This document shows, one piece after another, positions 2,002 through 4,309 of a DNA stretch of 5,037 bases; the stretch's first letter is position 1, and the number at the start of each line of letters is the position of its first letter. The position numbers were made by a program, and so were the translations under genes. A model generated the notes under the pieces. The model searched no databases and was not told where the DNA came from. It saw only the letters and a list, made by a program, of their open reading frames with translations. The stretch spans positions 1 through 5,037 of the forward strand of contig CAAHEK010000051.1 in NCBI GenBank assembly GCA_900772425.1, read 5' to 3'. This DNA is from an uncultured Lachnospira sp. GTDB lineage: Bacteria > Bacillota > Clostridia > Lachnospirales > Lachnospiraceae.

Positions 2002-2431
2002 GTTCAAACCTCCTTAGTTCTGTTTCCATATAGTAATCAAATTCGTTTGACTCATCCGTCCATGTGCAAGTATGCTGTCTTGTTACATTCAGCAGCTGCT
2101 GCCACAATTCTGCATGCTGTACTTCTTTGCCATTTGCTTTCTTCCATCCGTTCTTTTCCCACTGTTGTGGCCAGTGGTTTTGTACCGTATGCAACACATG
2201 CTCACATTTAGTATTTATGCGGATTTTGCAATTCCGGTTAAATCTTTCAAAGGCTTTTATTAGTGTTGTAAGAGCTGCCTGGTTTTCAGTCATATTTTCT
2301 TGCTCAATTATTTTTTTCTTTGTATACTCTTTATCCGGTGTTTTAAGCTGGATTATGTACATGCAGTACACTTTTTTCTTACGAGCTGGACCATGTGCTG
2401 TCGTCCGGACGTATATATTTACTTCCTCCAC
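1994..2431 (-). CDS. RNase H-fold protein, catalytic acids apparently lost
   Basis: 145 residues from a GTG at 2431, preceded by AAAGGAAGG at 7-nt spacing and overlapping the end of rep by 53 bp. The sequence aligns by eye with RNase HI along its length: a beta-1 strand (EVNIYVRT), TENQAALTTLIKAFERF (48-64, where E. coli RNase HI has TNNRMELMAAI), and VQNHWPQQWEKNGWKKANGK (83-102) with EVQHAELWQQL (103-113), matching the W...W..GW...K.VKN.DLWQ.L signature. The catalytic positions are changed: Asp10 aligns with Arg9, Glu48 with Ala53, and Asp70 (TDSQYV) with Lys75 (TKCEHV). The last acid, Asp134, cannot be placed with confidence. The fold is therefore probably kept while nuclease activity is lost. 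A structural or nucleic-acid-binding role near Rep is inference. RNase H-like genes are common in Firmicutes element replication modules. Confidence 0.8.
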   Translation of the reverse strand: MEEVNIYVRTTAHGPARKKKVYCMYIIQLKTPDKEYTKKKIIEQENMTENQAALTTLIKAFERFNRNCKIRINTKCEHVLHTVQNHWPQQWEKNGWKKANGKEVQHAELWQQLLNVTRQHTCTWTDESNEFDYYMETELRRFEHE

Positions 2432-3176
2432 GCTTATACCTTCCTTTCGTATTTTTTCTAAACTTTATGGAATAGTACGGAAAACCAAACTCTGTATATC
2501 CGGTCTGCTCACTTCCAGCTACCATGTAATAACCTTCTTTTTCATACTTATGTTTTGTACTCTTCTTTACTTTTGTAGAAAATGTGTTTGCATTAACTAC
2601 CCGCTTTTTTATTATTGGCTTTTTTAGATTTCTGGAAGACTGCCACCTCTTACCGCTTCTTTTTCCCAACGTCTTTTCTGTTGCGTTGGAATATTTCATG
2701 AAATACTTTGCAATATCCGTATAATCATTGTCGCTGTCTAGCGGCTTTATATCTACATATCCCTTGCCCCAGCACTTTTTTAATACATCGGCCGGACATG
2801 TATCCATTATCATGTGTATATGCGTTGCGCCTTTTGGTCCTATTTCCTTAACGTAGATGTACTTAACCTGCCCCAGCTCTTTTCTAAGTTTTTTTAACAT
2901 ATTCCGGATGTCTGCCTGCATATCTTCCTCTGTCGGAGGTCTTAGATCTTTCTTGTAGGTATATGTAACCAGCTGACCTGTTTCATCTGTAAAATTTGCA
3001 TTCATTAAGGCTGCCAGTTTTCTTTCTGCATTATTTTTATTTATTTTTTCCTGCGTTTCACTTGTCAGCTTTGCTCTGTCTGCTCTCTTTTCACCCTTAC
3101 AGTTATATCTAAGGGTGTGGTACCGCCTTATTGTTATTACATGTCCAGCTATACATCTTTCTTCTATGTATGGCAT
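2379..3176 (-). CDS. Rolling-circle HUH replication initiator (Rep)
   Basis: 265 residues from ATG at 3176. The Shine-Dalgarno AAGGAG (3192-3187) has a rather long 10-nt spacer. The signature block KYIYVKEIGPKGATHIHMIM (105-124) contains the HUH metal-binding pair His119-x-His121, with Glu111 a likely third ligand. About 35 residues later, DIAKYFMKYS gives the Tyr158-x-x-Lys161 motif typical of the nicking tyrosine. A downstream basic block (GKRSGKRWQSSRNLKKPIIK, 171-190) is typical of Rep proteins in the ORF2/G2P-like group. The length is usual for that group and no helicase domain is present. The expected role is site-specific nicking of the double-strand origin, with covalent attachment to the 5' end through Tyr158, to start rolling-circle replication of the element. 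A plus-strand small RNA just upstream is complementary to its ribosome binding site. The next gene starts inside its 3' end. Confidence 0.88.
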   Translation of the reverse strand: MPYIEERCIAGHVITIRRYHTLRYNCKGEKRADRAKLTSETQEKINKNNAERKLAALMNANFTDETGQLVTYTYKKDLRPPTEEDMQADIRNMLKKLRKELGQVKYIYVKEIGPKGATHIHMIMDTCPADVLKKCWGKGYVDIKPLDSDNDYTDIAKYFMKYSNATEKTLGKRSGKRWQSSRNLKKPIIKKRVVNANTFSTKVKKSTKHKYEKEGYYMVAGSEQTGYTEFGFPYYSIKFRKNTKGRYKRGGSKYIRPDDSTWSSS

Positions 3177-3185
3177 AAATAAATA

Positions 3186-3197
3186 TCTCCTTGGGTT
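3186..3197 (-). promoter_or_regulatory. rep ribosome binding site, predicted antisense target
   Basis: In rep mRNA sense this reads AACCCAAGGAGA and includes the AAGGAG Shine-Dalgarno. The same 12 bases recur with one change (AACCCAAGGTGA) at 3361-3350, inside the small RNA locus on the opposite strand. An RNA copied from the plus strand there can therefore pair with 11 of these 12 positions, nine of them contiguous, and mask the Shine-Dalgarno sequence. Confidence 0.6.
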
Positions 3198-3228
3198 CTT
3201 TAGTTAATTATTTCAATCAAGTTTTTTA

Positions 3229-3242
3229 GGGCGTTTCAGCCC
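3229..3242. other. Small GC hairpin in rep leader, possible origin element
   Basis: GGGC-GTTTCA-GCCC forms a 4-bp GC stem with a 6-nt loop in otherwise AT-rich DNA about 55 bp upstream of the rep start. T-rich runs lie on both sides, so it could be a weak terminator. Rep nick sites are often exposed in such hairpins, which makes it a candidate double-strand origin, but no family nick sequence is recognised. Confidence 0.25.
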
Positions 3243-3262
3243 CATTATTTTTTGAATTTAAA

Positions 3263-3275
3263 CCTTAAAATAAGG
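3263..3275. repeat. Short inverted repeat upstream of small RNA promoter
   Basis: CCTTA-AAA-TAAGG is a perfect 5-bp inverted repeat with a 3-nt spacer, lying 20 bp before the -35 box of the plus-strand promoter. It could be an operator for that promoter or part of the origin. It is short enough to be chance. Confidence 0.25.
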
Positions 3276-3294
3276 CTTTATATTATTAAATTTA

Positions 3295-3323
3295 TTGACT
3301 TTATTGCTAAAATGTTTTATTAT
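3295..3323 (+). promoter_or_regulatory. Sigma-70 promoter of the small RNA
   Basis: TTGACT (3295-3300), a 17-bp spacer, then TATTAT (3318-3323). Each box matches consensus at 5 of 6 positions and the spacing is optimal. This is the best promoter seen in the window. Transcription should begin near 3330, at the base of a hairpin and only about 35 nt before a strong terminator hairpin, which argues for a dedicated short RNA. Confidence 0.75.
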
Positions 3324-3329
3324 GTATTA

Positions 3330-3396
3330 AGAGTTATTTATGTGATAACTCACCTTGGGTTTAGAGAGCTGTTTCCTCAGCTCTCTTTTTTCTTTT
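3330..3396 (+). ncRNA. Predicted small antisense RNA controlling rep
   Basis: This is a roughly 65-70 nt RNA bounded by a near-consensus promoter and an intrinsic terminator. It starts with a perfect 7-bp hairpin, GAGTTAT (3331-3337) paired with ATAACTC (3345-3351) around a 7-nt loop. The single-stranded linker ACCTTGGGTTT (3352-3362) comes next, then the terminator hairpin. The linker contains nine contiguous bases, CCTTGGGTT, complementary to the rep Shine-Dalgarno region (3189-3197), with similarity extending to TAG beyond a 2-nt insertion. No open reading frame with a ribosome binding site is present. Plasmid copy-number antisense RNAs typically have this build and oppose rep expression. 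If rep mRNA reads through from the upstream operon, the RNA is also fully complementary to its leader. The promoter, hairpins and complementarity are visible; the regulation itself is inference. Confidence 0.68.
3363..3396 (+). terminator. Rho-independent terminator of the small RNA
   Basis: A perfect 9-bp stem, AGAGAGCTG (3363-3371) and CAGCTCTCT (3378-3386), encloses a TTTCCT loop and runs into a T tract interrupted by a single C (to 3396). The T tract is only on the plus-strand side. Read on the minus strand the stem is followed by TAAACCC, so it should not stop transcription coming from the 60-aa gene toward rep. Confidence 0.85.
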
Positions 3397-3559
3397 TATT
3401 TTCTTTATAAACCCCAATTATTCTTCCATCGTTAATCTCGTATGCATATCCTTCGGTTTTGAAGAATGCCTGCAGTCCTTCTATGGACATACTATTTATG
3501 CCGCTTGTATATGGCACTACTGCTGTATTTTTCAGCCTCTTAAATAACCTCTTTAACAT
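3377..3559 (-). CDS. 60-aa basic protein of unknown function
   Basis: The ATG at 3559 follows an excellent AGGAGG with 5-nt spacing and lies 8 bp after the hydrolase stop, so it is probably the next gene of that operon. The N-terminus MLKRLFKRLKN is basic and amphipathic and could touch membrane or nucleic acid. The middle (SMSIEGLQAFFKTEGYAYEI) and NDGRIIGVYKENK follow. The last residues (KKKKES) are encoded by the A-rich complement of the small RNA's terminator tract, and the TGA stop lies in the terminator loop. I do not recognise the family. The start signals are strong, but the length leaves some doubt. Confidence 0.68.
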   Translation of the reverse strand: MLKRLFKRLKNTAVVPYTSGINSMSIEGLQAFFKTEGYAYEINDGRIIGVYKENKKKKES

Positions 3560-3567
3560 TTTTCCTC

Positions 3568-4125
3568 CTATCTGTAACAGAAATACATATTGCCTATGTG
3601 CTTGTACACTCCACTTCCCTGTCTGCTCTCGCTTTGGAATATTACATTGTCAGGAACATCATACCCATTGGTTAAGAGGTCTTGTGCAATCTGCACACAT
3701 TCCTCCGTAGGCTGCTTATTAATATTCCCATCCTCCACACACGCATACTGGAGAGTAGGTTCCGTTTGGTATACAACCTCTTGCAGCGTATCCGGATAAT
3801 CCGGAGAAGCTACTCTGTTAAGTGCAACAACCCCAACCAGATATTTCATTTCATACGAGCATTTGCTGTTTCCGGCTTCCGCGTATATAAGCCGGGCTAA
3901 CAATTCTTCATCTTCTGATTTCACGCAAAGCTGTTGCACCGGTGCAATTTCTTCTTTTTCTTCATTCTCCACTTCTATTGGCAAGTCATAAACATATGTA
4001 TATTGCACTTTAACCACCGGCATATCAGTAACCGGAGAATATGTTATTGTTTTTTCCAACAGAAATAACATCATTCCTGTTATTACTACTGCTACCAGTA
4101 CCTTTTCCTTTTTAACCTGCTTCAT
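3568..4125 (-). CDS. Membrane-anchored SleB/CwlJ-like cell wall hydrolase
   Basis: 185 residues from ATG at 4125, overlapping the previous gene by 14 bp. The upstream Shine-Dalgarno is weak (GTGAGAAAA), so coupling is likely; a TTG at 4176 would add 17 residues deep inside the upstream gene and is less likely. Residues 1-8 are basic, 9-23 (VLVAVVITGMMLFLL) form one transmembrane or signal-anchor helix, and an acidic linker (about 45-65) leads to the catalytic domain (about 75-183). That domain has the Hydrolase_2 pattern: LARLIYAEAG with putative catalytic Glu83, then VGVVALNRV, LQEVVYQ, and a C-terminal FQSESRQGSGVYKHIGNMYF. The family cleaves peptidoglycan in spore cortex, but copies on mobile elements are usually taken to open the wall for DNA transfer or phage release. 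The domain looks complete. It would act outside the membrane of the host cell. Confidence 0.88.
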   Translation of the reverse strand: MKQVKKEKVLVAVVITGMMLFLLEKTITYSPVTDMPVVKVQYTYVYDLPIEVENEEKEEIAPVQQLCVKSEDEELLARLIYAEAGNSKCSYEMKYLVGVVALNRVASPDYPDTLQEVVYQTEPTLQYACVEDGNINKQPTEECVQIAQDLLTNGYDVPDNVIFQSESRQGSGVYKHIGNMYFCYR

Positions 4126-4309
4126 CAATTTTTTTCTCACTAATGGTTGTTTTTTTATTAACAATGCTTTTTGCAAAGAGCTGTGCAGCTCTTTTTAAAT
4201 TTTCAACTGCTATAGCTCTTTCTTTCTCTGATAGTTGTGGCGAATGCACATTAACAACACATCCGTCAGGGAATACTGTTGTTGTTTTTAGATTGTATTT
4301 CACACGCAT
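4112..4309 (-). CDS. 65-aa conserved-looking protein of unknown function
   Basis: First gene of the minus-strand train. The start is uncertain: ATG at 4309 has its AGAGAGG only 2 nt away, while a GTG at 4303 has an ideal 8-nt spacing and would give 63 residues. The protein opens with a beta-rich part (VKYNLKTTTVFPDGCVVNVH), with the PDGxVVNV stretch I associate with small hypothetical proteins of Firmicutes elements, and then SPQLSEKERAIAVENLKRAA as a helix. It ends in a lysine-rich tail. No enzymatic motif is visible. Its stop overlaps the start of the hydrolase, so the two are coupled. Function unknown. Confidence 0.68.
   Translation of the reverse strand: MRVKYNLKTTTVFPDGCVVNVHSPQLSEKERAIAVENLKRAAQLFAKSIVNKKTTISEKKIDEAG

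Follow-up and report, generated by a model that had tools for sequence, protein, structure and literature searches.

A predicted antisense RNA and co-varying pairing arms in the rep leaders of a phage-type replication gene family

What controls the synthesis of a replication initiator when the strand opposite its leader appears to carry a complete transcription unit for a small RNA? This question is raised by a stretch of 5,037 nucleotides (nt) from an uncultured Lachnospira sp. (forward strand, positions 1 to 5,037 of contig CAAHEK010000051.1, assembly GCA_900772425.1), hereafter called the window, in which the minus-strand gene rep (2379..3176) encodes a replication initiation protein, Rep, of 265 amino acids (aa) that matches PF23343 and phrog_3584. 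Comparison of this locus with its relatives suggests that an antisense RNA of ~60 nt is probably made across from the rep leader, and that it would repress Rep translation both by pairing with the leader and by pairing of an unpaired linker with the rep Shine-Dalgarno (SD) sequence.

The elements of this unit, which an earlier note on the DNA had described, are all present on the plus strand between 3295 and 3391. The promoter (3295..3323) consists of TTGACT (3295-3300), a 17-nt spacer and TATTAT (3318-3323), and in promoter scoring it is the highest-ranking site of region 3000-3700 (10/12), which holds 6 promoter-like sites on both strands, compared to a mean of 2.8 in shuffles, and 2 terminator-like sites, both on the plus strand, compared to a mean of 0.3. 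With its start placed by the -10 box, the predicted RNA (3330..3391) is defined by the promoter and terminator calls, its fold and its recurrence in relatives. It comprises a 5' hairpin of 7 base pairs (bp) found by folding and as repeats (3331..3351), an 11-nt anti-SD linker, ACCTTGGGTTT (3352..3362), assigned from the fold and its complementarity, and an intrinsic-terminator-like element (3363..3391) made of a 9-bp hairpin (3363-3386) and a T tail. Folding of 3330-3392 gives two hairpins with the linker open in the centroid at -23.1 kcal/mol, a stability (z -4.9) equalled by 0/200 shuffles. No match to the window was found in Rfam at E values up to 1, a search of 10 relatives at gathering cut-offs returned only two tRNAs, and the exact 21-base linker-terminator pattern had 0 matches in viral contigs.

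The linker also has the complementarity that the earlier note had ascribed to it. The rep SD, AAGGAG, lies at 3187..3192 on the minus strand, and the longest contiguous match to the linker covers nine bases of the rep leader, AACCCAAGG (3189..3197, minus strand), a length reached by 22/5000 shuffled linkers and 37/5000 shuffled whole RNAs (~0.4-0.7%). None of the other 102 start regions attains the window's linker:SD score of 10, and 1/102 does so when a wider region is allowed. The direct repeat TCNCCTTGGGTT, placed at 3186-3197 and 3350-3361 in the earlier note, is there with 11/12 positions identical.

To gather relatives of this locus, viral, phage and genome records were searched for homologues of Rep, and further loci were found with DNA patterns that join the antisense -35 element to an origin-like block described below. 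The first pattern gave 38 loci, of which 13 were set aside for want of a nearby rep; the second gave at least 120 matches, and the loci taken from that scan are part of this total. The genome loci, also a part of all matches, came from searches of 397, 392 and 393 genomes plus 20 and 20 further stretches, and their host group is inferred from two of them, L001 and L002. From 158 leaders, 33 redundant ones were dropped to give 125 non-redundant leaders, the window included; L083, with a leader of <200 nt, was also dropped.

In 103 of these 125 leaders an antisense promoter was called with an intrinsic terminator after it, so the architecture opposite the rep leader is kept well beyond the window, while the same call was made in 0/125 leaders on the sense strand and in 4/625 block-shuffled ones. 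By source, the unit is found in 17/28 loci gathered by Rep homology (viral, phage and two genome records), in 54/64 host-genome loci, in the window, and in 31/32 of the DNA-pattern loci among the matches listed, a fraction that is biased because the patterns themselves select the -35 element; when pattern-derived loci and the window are removed, it is present in 71/92. In the 22 remaining leaders either the promoter (10) or the terminator (12) was not called, and some of them look real by eye (L016, L147). The family RNAs measure 55, 64 and 78 nt at the 5, 50 and 95% points, their -35 element lies at a median of 72 nt upstream of rep, and the promoter spacer is 17 nt long in 98 of 103 loci. 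By eye, many of the terminator loops hold TTTCC, TTCCC or ATTCC (TTTCCT in the window), which are anti-SD-like.

If this RNA acts on its own leader, what does it pair with? The segments compared were the linker (RNA start to terminator stem), an arm R (the antisense promoter spacer plus -10 box) and the rep start region (-26..+5), and complementarity within a locus was set against that between loci in 5000 permutations of the 103 loci with a called unit. The linker fits its own SD better than that of other loci (5.98 vs 5.35; 0/5000), so the independent variation of the two that would have counted against the earlier note's proposal is not what is seen; this co-change had been set as a test beforehand. 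The R arm lies outside the antisense RNA, in the promoter spacer, and complements both the rep start region (R:SD, own 6.07 vs other 4.82; 0/5000) and an arm, L, that lies inside the RNA (L:R, own 8.14 vs other 5.05; 0/5000). Among the 54 host-genome loci alone, which were fetched after the idea had been formed on viral loci, own-locus values were reached by 8 (linker:SD), 0 (R:SD) and 0 (L:R) of 5000 permutations. When permutation was stratified by GC content, linker:SD remained at 0/5000 and R:SD, at 6.07, stayed above the permutation maximum of 5.40. The linker and R signals are both strongest at -10..+13 relative to rep, and widening of the start region to -26..+21 gives z 13.8 for R, whose helix spans the first base of the start codon in 23 of the 36 loci that rank in the top 10%. 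Controls of orientation were null (linker against same-sense SD, 2111/5000; R against the reverse complement of SD, 4278/5000). Across the family, R outranks the linker as the strongest anti-start element (z 12.4 vs 5.9), so that the usual design looks like a switch formed by L, R and the start region rather than the plain SD-masking seed that the earlier note had proposed.

How such a switch would be set depends on the transcript that carries it. A rep promoter is not found above chance in the family leaders, since sites of at least 10 matches occur in 2/103 (5% of shuffles) and sites of at least 9 matches in 22/103 (26% of shuffles), while antisense promoters of at least 10 matches occur in 73/103. 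In addition, among the 98 loci with enough sequence, an upstream open reading frame (ORF) co-directional with rep ends at the antisense terminator in 90 (a median of 4 nt before it), and an opposite-strand ORF of at least 80 codons begins within 150 nt past this terminator in 32. The missing promoter signal and the position at which the upstream ORF ends lead us to infer that rep is translated from read-through mRNA of upstream genes, the leader of which would hold L, R and the start region. In relatives, L would pair with R when the antisense RNA is absent, leaving the start region open; when the RNA is present, L would be occupied and R freed to close the start region, turning translation off. 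When bases covered by the antisense RNA are blocked in silico, R:SD pairs rise from 2.17 to 5.51, compared to 2.85-2.96 in four sets of chimeras with a foreign start region, and mean start-region pairing rises from 0.530 to 0.585, with an increase of >0.05 in 40/103 loci.

Several observations weigh against this reading, both in the family and in the window. The same fold model changes 18/103 loci the wrong way by >0.05, and only 36/103 loci fall in the top 10% for R:start region (-26..+21). The loci that beat their own shuffles at the 0.05 level number 57/103 for L:R, 38/103 for R and 18/103 for the linker. Some controls also lie above chance, with 6 of 5000 permutations for terminator:SD, 38 for L direct R and, against coding sequence, 154 for R and 221 for the linker; the terminator:SD and coding signals are far below that of R:SD, and that of L direct R is weak. 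Counts of wobble G-U vs A-C on the sense strand, compared to tell RNA from DNA pairing, are 31 vs 23 for L:R and 11 vs 4 for R:SD, and become 47 vs 56 and 47 vs 30 once end pairs are counted and the start region is widened. Arawn (L022), of the annotated phage relatives tested the nearest, has no called unit, since its terminator was not called, and in leaders from another host order (L245-L278) the unit was called in 5/32 and the pairing tests were null. The window itself has neither an R arm in its promoter spacer (p 0.95 vs shuffles) nor the spacer L:R repeat (p 0.75); blocking of the antisense-covered bases lowers its start-region pairing from 0.63 to 0.51, full antisense cover of its leader lowers this value from 0.55 to 0.48, and a value of 0.58 results if the cover is limited to what precedes R. 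It also has three weak promoter-like sites on the rep strand (9/12, 3348-3282), a transcript from which would largely be without L and R.

The window thus departs from the usual family design. Its counterpart of R, 3331-3347, lies within the RNA, in the 5' part of the first hairpin, and nearly repeats the rep start region in the same sense (inverted repeats I1 and I3). The linker does match the SD, as the earlier note had held; its further statement that little else in the RNA does so has to be amended for this second segment. The R-like arm scores 10 (p 0.0125 vs its own shuffles) and ranks first in a leader-wide scan of the window, in which a score of 10 is the 95% level of shuffled leaders. 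In the predicted best fold of the free window leader the R-like arm already pairs with the start region (0.55 paired), and the rep leader from 3165 to 3240 has almost no structure when folded by itself. Because the R-like arm is inside the RNA, the more likely route in the window is direct pairing of the linker with the rep SD, and because full antisense cover lowers start-region pairing there, this contact is also the more likely inhibitory step. With no R arm in the promoter spacer, masking of the SD, as the earlier note proposed, is the best-supported mode for the window, and is not the one that stands out in the family. Both modes named in the earlier note, pairing over the full length with a leader that is read through into rep and seed pairing with the SD, may operate.

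Of the alternatives, the one that survives best, and which we consider unlikely, is a plain cis-antisense RNA that acts through full-length leader pairing only (by occlusion, RNase III cleavage or attenuation), with the nine-base match of the window a coincidence or the relic of a duplicated start. The overlap of RNA and leader by itself provides full complementarity to a read-through leader, and the nine-base match has the chance probability given above, with 1/102 non-cognate start regions also reaching nine contiguous bases. In addition, the linker signal in relatives is below those of L:R and R:SD and may follow from them. This explanation has to contend with a linker:start-region complementarity that tracks the locus (103 loci, 0/5000) and peaks at the start codon region.

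A second alternative, which seems improbable, is that the transcript is no regulator and serves as a primer for complementary-strand synthesis from an RNA-polymerase-dependent single-strand origin. It draws on the position of the unit just upstream of the origin-like block, on a template that is the strand with the nick-like motif, and on the L:R repeat that flanks the -10 box. The block in question, window 3203-3243 on the minus strand, resembles a double-strand origin that includes a nick site. It comprises a nick-site-like sequence, ACTTGATTGAAATAATTAAC (3203..3222, minus strand), which was placed by eye as a divergent version of a motif that relatives conserve and which we take to resemble the origin nick sites of phiX174 and pC194, and 5' of it an origin-like hairpin (3229..3243, minus strand) to which, as judged by eye, hairpins in relatives correspond in position. 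The relatives have a hairpin plus CTTGnTnAAnnnnTTA, and a CTTG-type block lies near rep within 1 mismatch in 62/93 leaders (0.2% of shuffles); a motif search across leaders does not select the window's copy of this block. Between the hairpin and the antisense promoter the window has extra sequence (3244-3294) with a near-palindrome, CCTTAAAATAAGG, for which no counterpart was seen by eye in those relatives' leaders that were inspected. Against a primer stand the intrinsic terminator, which stops the RNA at ~64 nt, the locus-by-locus complementarity of the arms to the rep start region, a match for which priming has no need, and the Rep relatives from the other host order, which retain the nick-like block (17/32 within 1 mismatch) and are mostly without the unit. 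Since these relatives keep the one mostly without the other, the antisense control system looks lineage-specific. The least probable alternative, by a small step, makes a DNA-binding protein (a repressor or Rep) the regulator of the antisense promoter and of rep, with L, R and the start region as its repeated sites. The usual operator position of R between the -35 and -10 elements and wobble counts that do not prove RNA pairing would allow this, but the sequences vary by locus while their complementarity is kept, the orientation controls are null and the signal has its centre close to the start codon.

A broader and more tentative proposal concerns tailed phages and prophages of Lachnospiraceae-type bacteria. 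These would control their replication with an undescribed antisense RNA system, in which the spacer between the -35 and -10 elements of the antisense promoter also specifies the anti-start arm of a rep leader with two stable states, and promoter DNA and RNA switch would evolve together. Such an RNA would fix the copy number or hold a prophage silent, and related phages that enter the cell could be silenced as well where their sequences match. Provided that the RNA is made, phages and prophages of rumen- and gut-type bacteria would have in it a point at which replication is decided, related phages might be kept apart by an RNA-based barrier, and the loci would form a natural collection of RNA switches. 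With its paired arms, the mechanism lends itself to direct testing by reporter.

The Rep protein bears on which elements are concerned. It matches PF23343 (REP_ORF2-G2P) at 1.3e-14 and the phrog_3584 replication initiation protein at 4.7e-55, and its HxH motif is invariant in an alignment of 17 relatives; we take it to be of the HUH class. The earlier note had drawn its comparison from rolling-circle plasmids. Matches to plasmid Rep proteins do exist, but they are weaker and cover less, none reaching 80% of the protein, while the top annotated matches are to three Butyrivibrio phages, Closwp03, Arawn and Idris (36.6% identity), and to virus contigs. By its protein matches the family is thus phage-type, and the window element may be a phage, a prophage or a plasmid. 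The closest full-length relatives known as proteins are 57-92% identical and lie outside the DNA comparison set, in which the best full-length relative was ~42% identical (88 non-redundant loci at that stage). Single-protein scans for closer relatives of the window rep gave 0 viral and 2 genome loci, and 6 of 391 genomes searched across the class contained a match, the best being 38% identical at full length and one 46% identical over residues 25-193.

Around rep, the co-directional ORFs upstream include one of 60 aa (3377-3559, minus strand), whose stop lies at 3377 and whose 3' end overlaps the antisense terminator, and a cell-wall hydrolase recognized by a profile match to Hydrolase_2 (3568-4176, minus strand). 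In phage Arawn a putative endolysin is encoded directly downstream of rep, whereas the cell-wall hydrolase of the window is upstream. Directly after rep, 1994-2431 on the minus strand encodes an RNase H protein (PF00075) whose ORF overlaps the rep 3' end by 53 bases; a role in removing a primer or an RNA:DNA hybrid is conceivable.

How does this arrangement compare with known systems? For the phage Rep group considered here, no paper on an antisense RNA was found in the open-access literature searched, and the words 'replication' and 'antisense' are absent from the main text of a paper on Butyrivibrio phages (PMC7372960). In plasmids, it is well established that antisense RNAs control replication initiators (PMC5703833). 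For example, RNAI of pSK41, from the staphylococcal RepA_N plasmids, has two stem-loops with a single-stranded spacer of 8 nt between them, much as the window RNA would with its 11-nt linker, and its binding is proposed to make a stem-loop form in which the ribosome binding site is hidden, like the switch predicted here (PMC5703833). The systems differ in that Rep is here a PF23343 protein rather than RepA_N, the RNA is shorter, and the family leaders show no rep promoter above chance (PMC5703833). In the pT181 RNAI/repC system, antisense binding frees an arm held by a pre-emptor, closing a stem-loop before the initiator start, in a manner comparable to L, R and the start region (PMC5703833). 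The stem-loop of pT181 is chiefly a transcription terminator, while no rep-strand terminator was called in window 3000-3700, which is why a translational effect is proposed here, and the pT181 origin is inside rep rather than upstream of it like the origin-like block (PMC5703833). The pre-emptor geometry, with R outside the RNA and complementing both L and the start region, is found in the 103 loci as a set (0/5000) and is absent from the window. The family geometry would therefore be that of the pT181 and pSK41 antisense switches, here on phage-type Rep leaders, and, by the comparison of sequences, a logic known from plasmids seems to be represented by ~100 natural variants with co-changing arms.

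For the window itself, a different comparison is apt. A study of pMV158 describes RNAII as a short antisense RNA that inhibits translation of the rep gene, as is predicted for the window RNA, and reports that rapid binding requires a single-stranded segment beside its hairpin, which has 8 bp and a U-rich end, a segment that the linker of the window RNA recalls (PMC4485353). RNAII has one hairpin and a 17-nt 5' tail in place of the second, 5' hairpin of the window RNA, which also lies ~154-215 nt upstream of rep and would reach the SD through repeated sequence, not through overlap (PMC4485353). In its linker mode the window therefore appears closer to pMV158 RNAII than to a switch of the pT181 or pSK41 type.
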